Virus record (IMG/VR): IMGVR_UViG_3300044646_001027
Coordinates: 1 to 30,659 of that record
Origin: a virus
DNA: 30,659 nucleotides
Direction: 5' to 3' (one strand)
A model generated the notes under the pieces. The model did no database searches and was not told the origin of the DNA. It saw only the letters and a list, made by a program, of their open reading frames with translations. Below, in pieces: positions 7,709-20,934 of the stretch. The translations under genes were made by a program, and so were the position numbers. Position 1 is the stretch's first letter. Every line of letters starts with the position of its first letter.

Positions 7709-7966
7709 ATGGCGAGGGCCAGTAGCGTCGTCGATGAGGTGCTGTCGCTCATTCCGCAGCACCCAGGCGTGCGCCCGTGGTGGGAGCGGCTGGACGCCAA
7801 GCAGGCCGAGCTCGCCGAGTCGATCCTCGAGGCGTGGCACGGCGGCAAGTTTGGGCCGCACCGACGCCCGGCGGCCAGGGCTATTTCGCACGTTCTCAAG
7901 CGTCACGGCGTCTCGATCGGCGAGCAAGGAGTGGACATATGGCTAAAGCGCAACGCCAAGTCGTGA
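7709..7966 (+). CDS. Small putative DNA-binding protein paired with the phosphoesterase
   Basis: The 85-residue basic protein starts MARASSVVDEVLSLIPQHPG and has AAAGGAG 9 bases upstream. The C-terminal half (RRPAARAISHVLKRHGVSIG then VDIWLKRN) reads like a helix-turn-helix. It overlaps the phosphoesterase start by 28 bases, so the two are probably cotranslated. A small-terminase-like or regulatory role is conceivable but unproven. Confidence 0.65.
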   Translation: MARASSVVDEVLSLIPQHPGVRPWWERLDAKQAELAESILEAWHGGKFGPHRRPAARAISHVLKRHGVSIGEQGVDIWLKRNAKS

Positions 7967-9024
7967 GCGAAATCGCGGACGCGGTTGCTGATGCCGAGCA
8001 ACTCGCGGCCGACGCCGAGCTCGCACGGCTGCGGTCAGAGTTGGCTTCATACCGAAATCGTTATAAGGCGGCACTCGCACAGATCGACCGTGAGCGAGGC
8101 CGCGCCGATGCAATGGCTTCGCTGCAGGGCGTGAAAGGCAGATCCCCGCACAGGGGCAGCAAGCCTCGCAAGCGGGTGCGTCACGACGCCACGGCGATCC
8201 TCATGCTCTCGGACGTTCACTGCGAGGAGCGGGTCGAGCCGCAGACCGTGAACGGCGAGAACGACTACTCGCTTGACGTATGTCAACTGCGGCTCGCCGA
8301 GCTAGAGGAGCGGTTCCTCGACTGCCTCACCCACGAACGCAACCAGGCCGACATTCGCCGCGTGCTCATCTGGCTCGGCGGCGATTTCATCACGGGGCAC
8401 ATTCACCCGGACTGCGTCGAGGTGGCCCAACTGTCGCCCATGAACGCCACGCGGTGGATCGCCGAGCGGCTTCGTGGACTCATCGACAACGTGGCCCAGC
8501 ACGCCGACGAAGTTGTGATTTGCACGAACGCTGGCAACCACGGCCGCAGCAACGAGGGCAAGCCACGAATCGCCACCGAGCTCGAGCACAGCTGGGAGCA
8601 GCTGATGTATTTCACGCTCGCCCGCGAGGAGCGCAACAAGAACGTGCGGTGGCAGATCGCCGAAGGGCACCTGGGCTACGTCGATCTCGACGGGTTCCTT
8701 GTTCGCACGACCCATGGCCACAGTATTCGCTTCGCTGGCGGCGTCTACGGGCTGGCCCTGCCGGCGAGCAAGGCGATCGCCAGATGGGACGCGGGCAGGA
8801 AAGCAAACTTGACGATCTTCGGCCACTACCACTCGTGGGGCTGGCTGCGTGGTGCCCGATACGTTGCGAACGGAAGCGTGATTGGACACTCGCCATACGC
8901 TGAGCGAGTCGCGTCACCAGAGCGGCCGTGCCAGGGGATGGCGATCATCGACCACGGCCGCAACGAGGTGACGCGAGCGTATCCACTGTTCTGCGACCGC
9001 GATCTACGAAAGGCGAGGGAATGA
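7939..9024 (+). CDS. Calcineurin-like metallophosphoesterase
   Basis: A 361-residue protein with an AAGGAG 7 bases before the ATG. It begins with a charged coiled-coil region (residues 1-60) and a basic stretch. It then shows the ordered metallophosphatase motifs: D92-V-H94 in LSDVH, GGDF 147-150, GNH 199-201, THGH 258-261 and GHYH 295-298. These residues bind two metal ions in phosphodiesterases and phosphatases of this fold (Mre11, SbcD, lambda phosphatase). The substrate cannot be read from sequence; a nucleic acid target is plausible given the small DNA-binding partner upstream. The stop overlaps the following ATG. Confidence 0.88.
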   Translation: MAKAQRQVVSEIADAVADAEQLAADAELARLRSELASYRNRYKAALAQIDRERGRADAMASLQGVKGRSPHRGSKPRKRVRHDATAILMLSDVHCEERVEPQTVNGENDYSLDVCQLRLAELEERFLDCLTHERNQADIRRVLIWLGGDFITGHIHPDCVEVAQLSPMNATRWIAERLRGLIDNVAQHADEVVICTNAGNHGRSNEGKPRIATELEHSWEQLMYFTLAREERNKNVRWQIAEGHLGYVDLDGFLVRTTHGHSIRFAGGVYGLALPASKAIARWDAGRKANLTIFGHYHSWGWLRGARYVANGSVIGHSPYAERVASPERPCQGMAIIDHGRNEVTRAYPLFCDRDLRKARE

Positions 9025-11705: not shown

Positions 11706-11824
11706 ATTAAGTTCCTCGCCCATCTGCGGGGATGAGGTGAACAGAAACACACAGGACCGATGAGCGGTGGAATCGCTTAACGGAAGGATGCGGTGGAACC
11801 GCAGCAGCAAGGACGCACGAACCA

Positions 11825-11854
11825 CCCGCTTAGCACGACGCAAGGCGGGCTTTT
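11825..11854 (+). terminator. Terminator- or attenuator-like hairpin with T-run
   Basis: CCCGCTT pairs with AAGGCGGG (one bulged G) around a 10-base loop and is followed by C and TTTT. It lies 57 bases before the RecT-like start, so it would end short transcripts coming from the control region. Confidence 0.42.
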
Positions 11855-11910
11855 CATATCGAAGAAACGACACGAATCGTCGTTTTTCCACTACGAAAGG
11901 ACGCGGACAG

Positions 11911-12819
11911 ATGACCACGGAGCTCTCCACCAACACGACGCCCGCGAGGGGGTTGGCCCTCGCCTCGTTCGACGATGCGTTCCGGTTTGCCACGATGGTG
12001 GCCAAGTCGGACTTCGCCCCGAAGGACTTCAAGGGCAAGCCCGAGTCGTGCCTGCTGGCAATCCAGCACGGCAGCGAGATCGGGCTCTCGCCCATGCAGT
12101 CGCTCCAGAACATTGCCTGCATCAACGGGCGGCCGGCCATATGGGGCGATGCCGCCCTGGCGGTCGCCATGGCCAGCCCGGTGTGCGAGTACGTCACCGA
12201 GAAGATCGACGGCGACGGCGAGTCGATGGTCGCAACATGCGAGGCCAAGCGGCGTGGCTACGAGAAGCCGACGGTCGCTCGGTTCAGCGTGGCCGACGCC
12301 AAGAAAGCCGGGCTGTGGGGCAAGTCAGGTCCGTGGAGCCAATACAGCCGCAGGATGCTGCAACTGCGTGCCCGAGGCTTCGCACTGCGTGATGCGTTCC
12401 CTGACGTGCTGAAGGGCCTCGTGACGGCCGAGGAGGCCCAGGACTACCCGACGACGCCTGAGCCGGTGACGGTGCGTCCCAAGTTCAACACGGCCACCAC
12501 GCACGTCGCAGAGATCCAGACGACGCAGCAGGGCGATGACCGTATCCGAGAGCTCGCACGCCAATTGCCGCAGGCGACGACCGCAACTGACGCGGACATG
12601 CAGAAGGCACGGCACTATGTGCAGACGGCCACCGCAGGGCAGCTGGAGCGGATGCAGAAAATCGTCGAGGCGCGGCTCAAGGCGGGCATCTACACGCCGG
12701 CGCAGGCCGACGAGCTGCTGAACCTCATCAACGGCAAGCTCGACATCTTGTCATCCGTGCCTGAGGACCGTGGCCAGGAGTTCGTCCACGAGGCCGCCCA
12801 GCACGAGGTGGCGACGTGA
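11911..12819 (+). CDS. recT: RecT-family single-strand annealing protein
   Basis: The ATG at 11911 follows GAAAGGA by 9 bases; the frame is open further upstream but without a good start. The 302-residue protein carries the RecT pattern: FKGKPESCLLAIQHGSEIGL, then LSPMQSLQNIACINGRPAIW, a mid-region with DAKKAGLWGKSGPWSQYSRR and LQLRARGFALRDAFPDVLKG. The last 100 residues are a charged tail with no recognised domain. RecT proteins anneal complementary strands in phage recombination, usually with a partner exonuclease. No exonuclease gene is visible here. The next gene starts at GTGA over its stop. Confidence 0.82.
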   Translation: MTTELSTNTTPARGLALASFDDAFRFATMVAKSDFAPKDFKGKPESCLLAIQHGSEIGLSPMQSLQNIACINGRPAIWGDAALAVAMASPVCEYVTEKIDGDGESMVATCEAKRRGYEKPTVARFSVADAKKAGLWGKSGPWSQYSRRMLQLRARGFALRDAFPDVLKGLVTAEEAQDYPTTPEPVTVRPKFNTATTHVAEIQTTQQGDDRIRELARQLPQATTATDADMQKARHYVQTATAGQLERMQKIVEARLKAGIYTPAQADELLNLINGKLDILSSVPEDRGQEFVHEAAQHEVAT

Positions 12820-15104: not shown

Positions 15105-15933
15105 TCACCACGTCCTGCCGCTCTTCTGCGACGACCTGATCGCGTCGTGCGTCGATATGACGCCGGCATGCTTTGGGGCGTACATGCGGCTGCTGTGCTA
15201 CGCATGGACACGCGGCGGCATACCTGACAACGAGGCGGCCTGCACACGCATCACGGGCGGCCTGGAGCCCGGCGACTGGGAGGCGATCCGCGGTCGCCTC
15301 GTGCAACTGGACGACGGCAGGCTGACCCACCAGCGGCTCGAGCTTGAACGTGTGGCCGTGGCCGAGATCCGTGATCAGAGATCAGAGGCTGGCAGGATAG
15401 GCAATGCCGTCCGGTGGGGATCGCAAACGGATCGCAAACGGATCGCAAATCGATCGCAAACGGATCGCAAAAGTATCGCCCCTAATCCTTCCCCTAGCCT
15501 TCCCATAAGACAAGAAGACATACCGGCTGCGCCGGTTCCCACGAGCGATCCGGCAAAGCCGTCTCGCTCGCGGGCGAAGCCTTCCGTCTCGTGGACTGCT
15601 GACGCAGGGTGGCAGGGGATCACGGACGCCGACCGACAGGAGTGGGCCGCCGCCTACCCCGGTGCCGTGATCGACCAGGAGCTCGCCAAGGCAACCGCCT
15701 GGCTTCGGGCAAACCCGACACGGGCGGGCCGCCGCAACTGGCGTTCGTTCCTCGTCCGGTGGCTGTCCCGCTGCCAGGACAAGGGCGGCACGAACCGCAC
15801 CGCCGGCGTCAGGCCCGACGAGAAACCGCCGCCGAAGCGGTGGATCGACGAGTACCGCCCGGCCCCGTATCGCCGGCCAGCGGAAGCCGTGGCACTTGCC
15901 GAGACGCTCAAACTCAAGGACGAGGACACATGA
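15085..15933 (+). CDS. DUF1376-type phage replication protein
   Basis: Start at 15085 (MARKADSHHVLPLFCDDLIA) with AGGAGG 6 bases upstream; 282 residues. Residues 10-60 match the DUF1376/YdaU pattern: FCDDLIASCVDMTPACFGAY then MRLLCYAWTRGGIPDN. This family occupies the replication-initiator slot of many lambdoid prophages. A polar linker follows (residues 112-132), encoded by the 11-bp DNA repeats described separately. The rest is Pro/Arg-rich, with WRSFLVRWLSRCQDKGG near residue 220. The C-terminus overlaps a LexA-like gene. Likely role: origin recognition or helicase loading; no helicase loader was found nearby. Confidence 0.8.
   Translation: MARKADSHHVLPLFCDDLIASCVDMTPACFGAYMRLLCYAWTRGGIPDNEAACTRITGGLEPGDWEAIRGRLVQLDDGRLTHQRLELERVAVAEIRDQRSEAGRIGNAVRWGSQTDRKRIANRSQTDRKSIAPNPSPSLPIRQEDIPAAPVPTSDPAKPSRSRAKPSVSWTADAGWQGITDADRQEWAAAYPGAVIDQELAKATAWLRANPTRAGRRNWRSFLVRWLSRCQDKGGTNRTAGVRPDEKPPPKRWIDEYRPAPYRRPAEAVALAETLKLKDEDT
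15418..15480 (+). repeat. Tandem 11-bp iterons inside the replication gene
   Basis: Five consecutive 11-base units of consensus GGATCGCAAAC (starts 15418, 15429, 15440, 15451, 15462) plus a partial sixth (GTATCGC at 15473). Because 11 is not a multiple of three, the repeat cycles through all reading frames and yields QTDRKRIANRS-like residues. Iterons inside an initiator gene mark the lambda origin, so this is an origin candidate. Confidence 0.6.
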
Positions 15934-18139: not shown

Positions 18140-18237
18140 TCGCTCTGACGGGCGTGATCTACGTCTGGGTGGCCGGCGACCTGGCGTGGCATGGGAAGCA
18201 TGGGCTCGCCATCGCCTACGCCGGGTACGCAGGATAA
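18124..18237 (+). CDS. 37-residue small membrane protein
   Basis: GTG at 18124 with GGAGG a few bases upstream. Encodes VSPWLIALTGVIYVWVAGDL then AWHGKHGLAIAYAGYAG, two short hydrophobic stretches around a His/Lys turn. Its TAA (18235-18237) lies inside the first attC-like palindrome, so this gene abuts the cassette array. Confidence 0.55.
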   Translation: MSPWLIALTGVIYVWVAGDLAWHGKHGLAIAYAGYAG

Positions 18238-18276
18238 GCGGCGGCGGCTCCGCCGTCCGCTTCATCCGCTGGTTCT
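18232..18276 (+). repeat. attC-like palindrome 1 (array boundary)
   Basis: Stem GGAT-AAGCGG-CGGCGG pairs with CCGCCG-T-CCGCTT-C-ATCC; the T (18256) and C (18263) are unpaired, both in the right arm. The right outer box is GTTCTGT (18272-18278). The left outer box lacks AAC, although the ACGCA spacer seen in copy 3 is present. This is either a boundary (attI-like) site or a decayed attC. Confidence 0.55.
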
Positions 18277-18311: not shown

Positions 18312-18497
18312 ATGCGACACGCATTCAAGATACTTGAGGAGTTGGGTGCCGAGTGCGACCGGCTCGGAGTTCGCGTGGTTGACGTTCACGGCGAGAGAGG
18401 CTCTGCGTCAGAGTTCCTTGCCAAGATCGTCCGCTACATCGAAGCACGGGAGAATGAGTGCGACGCGCTCCGTGCCACTCCAAAAACCGACGAGTAG
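18312..18497 (+). CDS. Cassette gene 1, small hypothetical protein
   Basis: ATG preceded by AAAGGAGG; 61 residues: MRHAFKILEELGAECDRLGV then DVHGERGSASEFLAKIVRYI. Looks alpha-helical and acidic, with no recognised domain. It starts downstream of palindrome 1 and stops (TAG) just before palindrome 2. Outer boxes GTTCTGT on its left and ACAGAAC on its right are exact reverse complements. Confidence 0.6.
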   Translation: MRHAFKILEELGAECDRLGVRVVDVHGERGSASEFLAKIVRYIEARENECDALRATPKTDE

Positions 18498-18499
18498 CC

Positions 18500-18589
18500 A
18501 CAGAACGCCAGCGATCAGCGGCCCGCGACCGCTGACGAAACTACAACCAGACGGCGGCATCGCGGGTCCGCTGCATCGCGTGGTTCTCT
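18500..18589 (+). repeat. attC-like palindrome 2
   Basis: ACAGAAC, spacer GCCA, GCGAT-CAGCGG-CCCGCGA ... TCGCGGG-T-CCGCTG-C-ATCGC, spacer GTG, GTTCTCT. Unpaired T (18567) and C (18574) are in the right arm. The apical 31 bases form the variable loop. The next gene has its own ribosome site after it. Confidence 0.75.
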
Positions 18590-18602
18590 CTTGGAGGCAC
18601 CC

Positions 18603-18791
18603 ATGAAGGCGAAAGTGACACAGGACGAGACTGGCATCCAGTGGGAAATCAAGGATGACGGGTCGGCGGAATATCAAAAGGCGGCTCAGTTGACGCGAGA
18701 GGCGAACGAGCGTGAGGAGCGTGGCCGCGAGGAGATTCGACAAATGGCCCAAGGACAAAAGGCCACCGAGCAAAATGGGGACGCGACGTAG
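18603..18791 (+). CDS. Cassette gene 2, small charged protein
   Basis: The ATG at 18603 follows TTGGAGG. 62 residues: MKAKVTQDETGIQWEIKDDG then a highly charged helix (YQKAAQLTREANEREERGRE) and a polar tail. Probably a coiled coil with a short beta-strand start. No family recognised. The 85 bases after its stop hold nested short hairpins (18824-18844 CGCAGG/CCTGCG; CCGGTAACCGG nearby) before palindrome 3; these could be remnants of an older site. Confidence 0.55.
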   Translation: MKAKVTQDETGIQWEIKDDGSAEYQKAAQLTREANEREERGREEIRQMAQGQKATEQNGDAT

Positions 18792-18874
18792 GGCCGACGT
18801 GGAACCCGCCACAGAGGCGACACCGCAGGGGCTATACGCCTGCGCCGGACTCCGGTAACCGGCATTATTCATTG

Positions 18875-18964
18875 AGAGAACACGCAGGATCAGGAGCATC
18901 GCATGAGTGACGAAACTACACCGCAGGACTCGGCAGCGATGTCTCCTGCATCCGTTGGTTCTCG
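18875..18964 (+). repeat. attC-like palindrome 3
   Basis: AGAGAAC, spacer ACGCA, GGAT-CAGGAG-CATCGC ... GCGATG-T-CTCCTG-C-ATCC, spacer GTTG, GTTCTCG. Unpaired T (18942) and C (18949) as in other copies. The ribosome site AGGAG (18892-18896) lies in the left stem and pairs with CTCCT inside the gene; the ATG at 18903 is in the loop. Confidence 0.75.
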
Positions 18965-19307
18965 CGGACTGGACATCATCGACCGTCTAGTCGCCTGTGA
19001 GACGCGGCCGTTGGTGACTATGGGTGAGGATTCCGAAACGCTACGCCGAGACGCTGGCGCGTGGGTTGAGTTGTGGAAAACGCTGCAAGACGCTCGCGCC
19101 GAGATTGCGTACCTGCGAAGGAACAGAGATCAATGGGCCGCTAAGGCAATGCTCGCGCTGGGGCAAGCGGGAGCGGCCAAGATAACCGATGCCGAGCGAG
19201 AGGCTATTGCGTGCGGCATCGACGCCATCAGAGATCGATTTGAGGGATACGAGGACTGCGAGCCGTTGCAGGCAACGCTCCGCTCTCTTCTGGAGCGGAC
19301 GAAGTGA
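18903..19307 (+). CDS. Cassette gene 3, modular early protein
   Basis: 134 residues. The first 20 include MSPASVGSRG, encoded by the right arm of palindrome 3. Middle is helical (AWVELWKTLQDARAEIAYLR). The C-terminus ITDAEREAIACGIDAIRDRF then LQATLRSLLERTK is a module shared with cassette gene 5 and loosely with genes 4 and 7. The TGA is the first three bases of the TGAGAAC box of palindrome 4. AGGAG lies 6 bases before the ATG but is in a predicted stem. Confidence 0.66.
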   Translation: MSDETTPQDSAAMSPASVGSRGLDIIDRLVACETRPLVTMGEDSETLRRDAGAWVELWKTLQDARAEIAYLRRNRDQWAAKAMLALGQAGAAKITDAEREAIACGIDAIRDRFEGYEDCEPLQATLRSLLERTK

Positions 19308-19393
19308 GAACGCTTGCGATCAGCGGCATCGAACACAGGAGATTGACACATGAGCGACGGTGATGAGATGTCCGCTGCATCGCTTGGTTCTCA
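19305..19393 (+). repeat. attC-like palindrome 4
   Basis: TGAGAAC, spacer GCTT, GCGAT-CAGCGG-CATC ... GATG-T-CCGCTG-C-ATCGC, spacer TTG, GTTCTCA. Unpaired T (19371) and C (19378). The loop holds ACACAGGAG and the ATG at 19350. Its first three bases are the stop of the previous gene. Confidence 0.78.
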
Positions 19394-19739
19394 CGGGCCG
19401 GACGCTTGGGCCGTACTGCTGCCAGGCAAAGAAAAAAGGCTGCGCCTGACGCGACAAGAAGCAGAGGATCATCTTGAGTTCTGGCTGCACAATCACCAGA
19501 TTCGGTCGGTCGATGACGGGAAGATGGTTCCGTTGTTTGCGGTTTCTGAGGCCGAGATCGACGCTCTGGAATACGTTGTTGTTGAGGGACGCATGGCGAG
19601 CAAGCAAGACTACGGCGTCTTGCGTGCGCTGCTCGTCAGGCTGCGGCCAGAGTGGGCAACCAGCGGCGATCTTGGATTGCGACCAGAGGAAGGCGACCTG
19701 CGAAACGGTTCACCGGATGGACGCGAAACGGTTCAGTGA
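19350..19739 (+). CDS. Cassette gene 4, AWAV-type modular early protein
   Basis: 129 residues starting MSDGDEMSAASLGSHGPDAW; MSAASLGSH comes from the right arm of palindrome 4. Then AWAVLLPGKEKRLRLTRQEA and MVPLFAVSEAEIDALEYVVV with a late VLRALLVRLRPEW. The AWAV...VPLF plan recurs in cassette gene 7 and in phage early (ead/Ea22-like) proteins as I know them. AGGAG is 8 bases before the start. Ends in TGAGAAC of palindrome 5. Function unknown. Confidence 0.66.
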   Translation: MSDGDEMSAASLGSHGPDAWAVLLPGKEKRLRLTRQEAEDHLEFWLHNHQIRSVDDGKMVPLFAVSEAEIDALEYVVVEGRMASKQDYGVLRALLVRLRPEWATSGDLGLRPEEGDLRNGSPDGRETVQ

Positions 19740-19785
19740 GAACGCCAGCGATCAGCGGCTCGTCCGCTGCATCGCGTGGTTCTCA
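19737..19785 (+). repeat. attC-like palindrome 5 (minimal form)
   Basis: TGAGAAC, spacer GCCA, GCGAT-CAGCGG, loop CTCG, T, CCGCTG-C-ATCGC, spacer GTG, GTTCTCA. At 49 bases this is the shortest complete copy and shows that the loop is dispensable. The next gene starts 31 bases downstream with its own ribosome site. Confidence 0.82.
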
Positions 19786-19815
19786 CGGTAAGATTGCGGC
19801 CGAAAGGGGATTGCG

Positions 19816-20097
19816 ATGGGTACATACAAAGCCAAATGCGACATCTGCTACGCCGAAAACGAGGTGCCGAACTACGGCGATTGGACGTGCAGCAAGTGCG
19901 GCCAGCGGTATGACTACGACGAAGGACACCGCATCCGTCTGACCGAGGCCCAGTTGCAGGCCTTGCGGCACCAGACGCCAGCGATCACGGACTTGGAGCG
20001 CGAGGCGCTAGTGGCATTTGCTAGGTCATGGCCTGCGATTGGCGTCACGGTAGAGCACGCCGAGACGCTGCGAAGACTCTTGGAGCGGCTAGGCTGA
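19816..20097 (+). CDS. Cassette gene 5, zinc-ribbon modular protein
   Basis: ATG after GAAAGGGGATTGCG. 93 residues: an N-terminal zinc ribbon (CDIC at 8-11, CSKC at 25-28) followed by IRLTEAQLQALRHQTPAITD and the shared C-terminal module LEREALVAFARSWPAIGVTV, ETLRRLLERLG. The ribbon suggests nucleic acid or protein binding. Stop is the TGA of palindrome 6. Swapped N-terminal parts on a common C-terminal module look like recombination-driven mosaicism. Confidence 0.66.
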   Translation: MGTYKAKCDICYAENEVPNYGDWTCSKCGQRYDYDEGHRIRLTEAQLQALRHQTPAITDLEREALVAFARSWPAIGVTVEHAETLRRLLERLG

Positions 20098-20183
20098 GAA
20101 CGGCTGCGATCAGCGGCATCGAACACAGGAGCGACCATGACGAAAGAGGTAAATGAGATGTCCGCTGGATCGCGTGGTTATGC
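20095..20183 (+). repeat. attC-like palindrome 6
   Basis: TGAGAAC, spacer GGCT, GCGAT-CAGCGG-CATC ... GATG-T-CCGCTG-G-ATCGC, spacer GTG, GTTATGC. The second unpaired base is G (20168) here instead of C. The left outer box TGAGAAC does not match GTTATGC beyond AAC/GTT, but GTTATGC matches the left box of palindrome 7. AGGAG and the ATG at 20137 are in the loop. Confidence 0.78.
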
Positions 20184-20457
20184 CATGAACTGGATGATGC
20201 CTGAACTTCCGACAGCAGCGACTGCCCGGGACTGGGCTTTGGCTGAGAGGTACACACGGGTGACGAAGGCCATCGACGAAGATTGGCCCGACGCTCATTC
20301 CGCGTGGCTGACCATCGGGCCGCAGCATTTCAAGGTGGCGGATTGCGAGACGAAGGAAGAGGCCGGGTGGCACTGCTGGATGCTGGCAAAGGCGATGCGG
20401 GCAGTAATCGACTCGGCCGTAACTGGAACGACGATAGCCGGGCCAACTGTGGCATAA
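20137..20457 (+). CDS. Cassette gene 6, hypothetical protein
   Basis: 106 residues; MTKEVNEMSAGSRGYAMNWM has its MSAGSRG from palindrome 6. Remainder: helical ARDWALAERYTRVTKAIDED, then WLTIGPQHFKVADCETKEEA and a C-terminal helix AGWHCWMLAKAMRAVIDSAV. It may be a small alpha-beta domain, with no family recognised. It lacks the shared C-terminal module. Its TAA overlaps the TAAC of palindrome 7. Confidence 0.62.
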   Translation: MTKEVNEMSAGSRGYAMNWMMPELPTAATARDWALAERYTRVTKAIDEDWPDAHSAWLTIGPQHFKVADCETKEEAGWHCWMLAKAMRAVIDSAVTGTTIAGPTVA

Positions 20458-20536
20458 CGGCTGCATTGAGCAGCCCGCGAAAGGACGTTGATATGACACA
20501 TGACGCGGACGGGTCTGCTCCAATGCTTGGTTCTCA
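20452..20536 (+). repeat. attC-like palindrome 7
   Basis: GCATAAC, spacer GGCT, GCATTG-AGCAG-CCCG ... CGGG-T-CTGCT-C-CAATGC, spacer TTG, GTTCTCA. Inner and middle stems differ from all other copies on both arms, preserving pairing. Unpaired T (20514) and C (20520) are conserved. The loop holds AAAGGA and the ATG at 20493. Confidence 0.78.
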
Positions 20537-20789
20537 GGAGCCGGTTGCGTGGGCAGTGTTTGAGGCTGACGGGAACTGCGTCGGCACATACGCAAAGCAG
20601 GAACACGCTCAGATTGTGATTGATGAGCTGGCCTACGACGGAATGGTGTACGAGCCGCTATATCGCCAGCCCGACCAAACGCTAACGACGGAAGAGCGGC
20701 AGGCGATTGAGTATTACGCCGAGTTCAGTGCGGCAAAGCCACCCAACAGCAAGGCGATCCTAATTGGATTGTTGATGCGATTGAACTGA
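20493..20789 (+). CDS. Cassette gene 7, AWAV-type modular early protein
   Basis: 98 residues: MTHDADGSAPMLGSQEPVAW (start from palindrome 7), AVFEADGNCVGTYAKQEHAQ, then MVYEPLYRQPDQTLTTEERQ and AIEYYAEFSAAKPPNS with LIGLLMRLN. The order AWAV domain, PLYRQ, LT.EERQAI module is the fullest version in the array; genes 3-5 carry parts of it. AAAGGA lies 7 bases before the ATG. The stop is the TGA of a TGAGAAC box (20787-20793). Confidence 0.66.
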   Translation: MTHDADGSAPMLGSQEPVAWAVFEADGNCVGTYAKQEHAQIVIDELAYDGMVYEPLYRQPDQTLTTEERQAIEYYAEFSAAKPPNSKAILIGLLMRLN

Positions 20790-20812
20790 GAACCAGTGTT
20801 TCTGCGGTTCCT
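20786..20812 (+). repeat. Degenerate terminal palindrome 8
   Basis: CTGAGAAC (20786-20793) exactly complements the GTTCTCAG that ends palindrome 7, then CAG-TGTTT-CTG-C-GGTTC closes a short hairpin (GAACC/GGTTC). The normal inner stem is missing. Probably a truncated last site of the array. Confidence 0.45.
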
Positions 20813-20909
20813 GATAACGCTCGTCGTTCCGCATAACGCGCCGCCGATTCGCGATTGCGCGGCCGTGAGACGATGGATTGAGGTGTTACGCGGTTCCGCA
20901 TAACGCGCC
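20804..20909 (+). repeat. Direct repeats GGTTCCGCATAACGCGCC
   Basis: Three related units: GCGGTTCCTGATAACGC (20804), CGTTCCGCATAACGCGCC (20825) and GGTTCCGCATAACGCGCC (20892). The last forms GTTACGCGG/CCGCATAAC (20885-20904, one mismatch). No coding frame is convincing between 20790 and 20934. Each unit contains GTT and AAC, as in the outer boxes of the array. Confidence 0.55.
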
Positions 20910-20934
20910 TGCACACAAACTGGCGAAAACTGAC

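Follow-up and report, generated by a model that had tools for sequence, protein, structure and literature searches.

Known cassette systems

Integrons and CALINs are already known from phages, a survey having covered 10,705 NCBI phage genomes (PMC9892861). The virus locus described here resembles integron cassettes and CALINs in its imperfect AAC/GTT hairpins with unpaired spacers, extrahelical bases and a variable terminal structure, in having one ORF per site, in the shuffling of units with junctions at the conserved triplet, and in belonging to a site family that also has members next to intI in planctomycete MAGs. It differs in that the ORFs are inverted, the loop and one arm of the site are coding, and the R boxes depart from GTTRRRY. 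With the phage CALINs of the survey it shares the integrase-less attC arrays in phage genomes and the DNA methyltransferases among the cargo, although the arrays described there are of the typical kind, no mention of start codons within attC was found there, and the string "Planctomyc-" does not occur in the text of the survey.

Two described cases connect an integron recombination site with translation. ORF-11 in attI1 has a Shine-Dalgarno sequence (SD) and an ATG, its frame crosses the crossover point, and it is cited as helping the expression of the adjacent cassette (Hanau-Bercot 2002, via PMC8876359). As cited, this is one fixed short attI peptide which is stopped by the cassette and acts by coupling, whereas at the present locus each start-carrying attC would start a protein of its own. 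The second case is that of the class 1 integron attC stem-loops, which in mRNA are cited as impeding downstream translation (Jacquier 2009, via PMC8876359); there the attC precedes the start of the next cassette, while here the start lies inside the hairpin. No report of an attC loop holding the start codon of its own cassette was found in the open-access literature, subscription journals lying outside the search, so the sites would represent a new variation on known integron attC sites.

We consider it very probable that the locus is a CALIN-like phage array of inverted cassettes, whose attC has come to serve as a portable region for translation initiation and as an N-terminal tag. The observations behind this reading are the structure of the sites, covariation, frame conservation, the linkage of hairpin and downstream ORF, recent reordering, and the association of the site family with intI.

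Organization of the array

The window, by which we mean the whole stretch of DNA analysed (30,659 nt, IMG/VR record IMGVR_UViG_3300044646_001027, which may be incomplete), is a virus contig of 30.7 kb encoding a tape measure protein, an exonuclease, a RecT-like annealing protein, a sliding clamp and a RusA resolvase. Between the clamp and RusA genes lie seven small ORFs, all on the plus strand and each preceded by a hairpin (Table 1). Copies 2-7 (18504-20532) are bulged hairpins of the form AAC-n4-L''-loop-L'-n-GTT, one per small ORF and all in the same orientation, with 4 nt between AAC and the left arm, one extra base in the right arm, and 2-3 nt before GTT. The arm type of the degenerate copy 1 is intact in 23 related sites.

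Table 1. Features of the cassette array in the window
Feature	Position	Strand	Remarks
Copy 1	18231-18274	+	Degenerate site at array 5' end; retains arms AGGATAAGCGG / CCGCTTCATCC and the right GTT; TAC in place of the left AAC
Cassette ORF 1	18312-18497	+	61 aa; own SD and ATG after GTT
Copy 2, attC-like	18504-18585	+	Long loop with inner CCCGCGA/TCGCGGG stem; without start codon
Cassette ORF 2	18603-18791	+	62 aa; start after GTT
Copy 3, attC-like	18879-18960	+	SD AGGAG 18892-18896 in left arm; ATG 18903; GTT 18958-18960
Copy 3, left arm	18886-18896	+	AGGATCAGGAG
Copy 3, right arm	18943-18953	+	CTCCTGCATCC; read in frame
Cassette ORF 3	18903-19307	+	134 aa; first 20 codons within copy 3; likely start in loop, MSDETTPQDSAAMSPASVGSRG
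Copy 4, attC-like	19309-19389	+	SD ACAGGAG and ATG 19350 in loop
Cassette ORF 4	19350-19739	+	129 aa; likely start in loop, MSDGDEMSAASLGSHG
Copy 5, attC-like	19741-19781	+	Short loop CTCGT; without start
Cassette ORF 5	19816-20097	+	93 aa; zinc-ribbon-like N-terminus; start after GTT
Copy 6, attC-like	20099-20179	+	SD ACAGGAG and ATG 20137 in loop
Cassette ORF 6	20137-20457	+	106 aa; likely start in loop, MTKEVNEMSAGSRGY
Copy 7, attC-like	20456-20532	+	Arms GCATTGAGCAG/CTGCTCCAATGC; SD AAAGGA and ATG 20493 in loop
Cassette ORF 7	20493-20789	+	98 aa; likely start in loop, MTHDADGSAPMLGSQ
Terminal AAC junction	20791-20793	+	No family hairpin after it; array 3' end, the beginning in attC orientation

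With six attC-like sites within 2.1 kb and no intI (no TIGR02249 match in the window), the array has the composition of a CALIN rather than of a complete integron. The 8 related viral records also gave no IntI. A search of the window against Rfam found no match, PHROGs and Pfam assigned no family to five of its cassette ORFs beyond weak zinc-ribbon matches for ORF 5, and no DNA match to cassettes 4-5 was found among named phages.

Two further repeat elements were seen in the window. Five to six tandem 11-bp repeats (GATCGCAAACG), iteron-like, occupy 15408-15479 in or beside a replication-type gene region. Just past the array, GTTCCGCATAACGCG occurs twice (20824-20842 and 20892-20910), flanking a GTT/AAC-bounded inverted repeat, possibly a further element, attC-like but of another kind, or one that belongs to the array end.

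Start codons within the hairpins

The first-pass annotation had placed ribosome sites and start codons between the arms of copies 3, 4, 6 and 7. In all four the ATG is indeed located there and the reading frame includes the right arm; the SD lies in the loop of copies 4, 6 and 7 and in the left arm of copy 3. The peptides it had listed (MSPASVGSRG, MSAASLGSHG, MSAGSRGY, SAPMLGSQ) are encoded by the arms, but they are unlikely to be the N-termini, since translation more likely starts 6-12 codons before them, at ATGs that are each preceded by an SD at 5-8 nt. From these starts the frame continues through the right arm and crosses GTT as GGT-T. The loops of copies 2 and 5 offer no usable start, and the ORFs that follow them begin after GTT.

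To place these copies in a wider set, 361 non-redundant related sites from 143 loci, mostly viral contigs, were collected with arm patterns from viral and genome contigs; because the sampling was by arm sequence, the set is biased towards this arm family, but not towards any loop content or frame. The loop is 5-17 nt long in 130 sites and 41-56 nt in 231, and 148 of the 231 long loops contain an SD and an ATG. The distance from ATG to GTT is 37, 40, 46, 52 or 55 nt, that is, 1 modulo 3, in 141 of these 148 sites, although loop length and the distance between ATG and left arm vary freely. Between ATG and GTT no stop codon was found in the used frame (0/142 sites), while the other two frames have stops in 126 and 114; past GTT the used frame stays open for a median of 87 codons, compared with 24-28 in the others. 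Third codon positions are the most variable in the loop part of start-carrying sites. The inner stem of the loop is complementary in 116 of 129 distinct start-carrying loops (34 on average and 48 at most when the ends were shuffled) and exists in 8 sequence versions (CATC/GATG, CGGC/GCCG, CCGC/GCGG and others). This covariation together with the frame conservation means that structure and coding both constrain the same nucleotides. By the frame, stop-codon and covariation counts in the 361 related sites, the presence of start codons in the hairpins is real, general and far beyond chance, and the same statistics bear out the suggestion that the site doubles as a translation-initiation region, translation presumably starting at the loop ATG.

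One loop class, CCCGCGACCTATGACCATGAACAAACCAACCGACGC (L284, L323, L101, L077 and others), reads MNKPTDALAGPLHRVV in a different frame, which is used in 14 of its 15 sites; this frame is mostly open far downstream and has no clear SD. A stricter loop pattern, whose spacing was too rigid, had no match in viral contigs. In a sample of 392 Planctomycetota genomes the long-loop pattern was found in a single genome (G002), and the start-loop motif occurred at a rate like that of the reversed control, so that start-carrying loops were not found in that sample.

Predicted accessibility of the start signals

In RNA structure predictions the start-carrying sites differ in whether the SD is accessible. 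In 54 sites, including copy 3, the SD belongs to an arm and is hidden, with an unpaired probability of 0.10. The AGGAG of copy 3 pairs with CTCCT in the right arm, as had been noticed from the sequence, and has a predicted unpaired probability of 0.00. In 88 sites, among them copies 4, 6 and 7, the SD is in the loop and largely free (mean unpaired probability 0.74).

These predictions raise the possibility of a translational switch, in which a hairpin with the SD in its stem would keep initiation repressed until it is opened by a ribosome that terminates at its base after translating the upstream ORF; expression would then depend on the upstream neighbour. The impediment of downstream translation cited for class 1 attC hairpins is in line with such a switch, and so is the position of upstream stops. 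In line with the earlier remark that upstream translation ends in the left arm, translation does stop at the hairpin base: the stop codon lies at -12 to +4 relative to AAC in 71 of 98 consecutive ORFs, and in the window it overlaps or abuts the left box (TGA-G-AAC, or TAA inside CATAAC). A stop near the hairpin is, however, expected in any such array, and its position is therefore not specific evidence for a switch. Moreover, the larger class of 88 sites exposes its SD, and stems may persist for recombination only. On balance we would lean against the switch; for a subset of sites, translational coupling by SD sequestration is plausible on the strength of the modelled structures.

Relationship to integrons

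The sites have the anatomy of attC, namely an imperfect inverted repeat, AAC...GTT triplets, unpaired spacers and an extrahelical base, together with a variable loop carrying a covarying stem. The R box consensus RYYYAAC/GTTRRRY is not followed, only AAC and GTT being conserved, and the right box is mostly GTTCTC, GTTCTG or GTTATG. Nor do the phage arrays have the classical order of ORF followed by attC: their attC lies at the 5' end of the ORF. The aadA7 cassette of class 1 has its attC behind the ORF, with the extra bases in the left arm when read in coding direction, while in the phage sites it is invariably the right arm that carries the extra base.

The same site family was detected 3' of a full-length intI (TIGR02249) in the planctomycete MAGs L241 and L244, and a C-terminal intI fragment is present in L249. 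In all three the sites always point, in the direction in which the phage ORFs are read, towards intI. The cassette ORFs of L241, L237 and L165 run the classical way, as illustrated by L241:2170-2778 (methyltransferase) and L237:6903-7388 (DUF4160). Given the side of the bulge and these classical chromosomal cassettes, reading the phage sites on the opposite strand gives the canonical attC polarity, and the crossover would therefore fall at the left AAC in gene sense. L244, a Planctomycetaceae MAG, has in addition a phage-type inverted cassette beside intI (hairpin 488-534, DUF551 ORF 558-812). Its homology to phage cassettes ends at the AAC at 819-821, and the sequence between there and intI is unrelated, which is what an attI junction should look like; this cassette suggests an exchange of cassettes between phages and host integrons. 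Judging from the shared site families, all at metagenomic loci, the phage host is probably a planctomycete. The IntI search of viral contigs returned one distant relative (L368, 43% identity), and the stretch of L368 examined held no convincing site of the family. As the phage records are without IntI, a host IntI acting in trans is the simplest agent; its target in moving the cassettes would probably be the hairpin, at the left AAC (which corresponds to G^TT on the canonical attC strand), and expression of the cassettes would probably come from phage transcription.

The mobile unit

Comparison of homologous cassettes revealed which neighbour the hairpin belongs to. Of 34 clusters with homology in the upstream gene end but not in the downstream gene, 1 shares the hairpin; of 44 with the reverse pattern, 24 do (random pairs, 7%). 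Even among pairs at least 95% identical over 150 nt upstream, the hairpin is shared in 0/28, all 28 hairpins being less than 80% alike. Phage L115, with a backbone 73-76% identical, carries window positions 19307-20101 (cassettes 4 and 5) with 795/795 nt identical; it also has cassette 3, in the order 4-5-3, and the new neighbours begin exactly at the left AAC. These linkage counts and the reordering in L115 indicate that the mobile unit is the hairpin with its downstream ORF, [AAC - hairpin - GTT - ORF], with attC at the 5' end of its own gene. The proposal that the hairpins are recombination sites is thus upheld by the cassette shuffling with exact left-AAC junctions and by the family members beside full-length integron integrases. 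What had been missed is that, since the ORFs and attC have opposite orientations, the start signal moves together with the gene downstream of it rather than the gene upstream.

The inverted-cassette model alone leaves unexplained the 13 of 44 downstream-homologous clusters in which no pair has a similar hairpin, and exchange at the right GTT or replacement of the hairpin alone must therefore also occur. Use of the other attC strand, through which recombination is reported to be about 10^3-fold rarer (PMC5371416), or annealing by the phage RecT is possible behind such replacement.

A broader role of the phage's own recombination, with the exonuclease (7777-9024) and the RecT-like annealing protein (11767-12819) in place of IntI shuffling the repeats through the conserved arms as short homologies, appears unlikely. 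Both proteins are encoded in the window and could act on repeated hairpins, hairpin swaps that keep the downstream ORF fit exchange within repeats, and the phage has no IntI. Homology alone, however, would need neither the conserved bulge nor the loop-stem structure, the junctions fall at AAC even between hairpins with very different arms (the 28 upstream-identical pairs above), and the same sites occur beside intI, with a cassette ending at an attI-like boundary. Still less can be said for the classical orientation, our initial assumption, in which attC would belong to the upstream ORF, the crossover would be at the right GTT and the preceding cassette would lend its start signals. The AAC...GTT order and the different hairpins of some downstream-homologous cassettes would fit it, but it was ruled out by the hairpin linkage counts (1/34 against 24/44), and both the reordered L115 cassettes, which carry the hairpin at the 5' end, and the bulge in the arm opposite to that of the aadA7 attC make it very improbable.

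Under the inverted-cassette reading, one DNA element appears both to move a gene and to start its translation. If this is true, the beginning of the gene product comes from the integron recombination site itself, capture, initiation and tag would form one portable module, and the expression of cassettes without promoters or ribosome sites becomes directly testable. The in silico data further imply that phages can maintain cassettes stably in the inverted state, and suggest that there is a large pool of phage cassettes, little studied so far, in exchange with planctomycete integrons. An extension that we regard as doubtful is that the attC sites serve as interchangeable, position-sensitive initiation switches: phages would swap tag and initiation strength by recombination, hairpins being exchanged independently of both neighbours with the frame kept across GTT, and the class with the SD in the stem would be gated by termination of the upstream cassette.

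Proposed N-terminal tags and cassette cargo

In many cassettes, then, the variable attC loop would supply SD and start codon, and loop and right arm together would form a tag. They encode a leader of 14-20 residues, mostly acidic or polar, with one frame kept across GTT (for example M[ST]DEVDEM-SAASRGS and MSDDNTQDGAEP-SPASAGS, among others). It is scarcely credible that the start codons in the loops are there by accident and that the ORFs set in only past the right arm, as the statistics contradict it: an SD and start of their own, shortly after GTT, are indeed present in short-loop cassettes (95/121, median 28 nt), but in only 33 of 140 start-carrying cassettes (median 80 nt), and the frame (141/148) and in-frame stops (0/142) speak against it.

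The 140 full start-carrying ORFs fall into 103 clusters by their post-tag sequence, and only the hairpin-encoded leader is common to the clusters. The tagged cargo includes DNA methylases (PF00145, C5, and PF01555, N6/N4), DUF551 proteins, whose domain starts only past the tag, and many unknowns. DNA methyltransferase cassettes with an attC-encoded leader were found at L277:10417-12084, L272:601-1344 and L063:497-1186, and possibly provide anti-restriction functions. Window ORF 4 and its homologue in L077 are 99% identical after GTT and have entirely different start-carrying hairpins in the same frame. The ORF 6 homologues in L003, L269, L272 and L331 are followed by different hairpins.

The last 50-60 nt are alike in many otherwise unrelated cassettes (e.g., L352:3306-3364, L361:5140-5193 and L244:765-821). 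These shared 3' ends read APPxDGK-stop followed by CCACAGAAC, or LLERLG-stop-GAAC, and from their sequences a shared module seems to be present at the cassette 3' ends as well.
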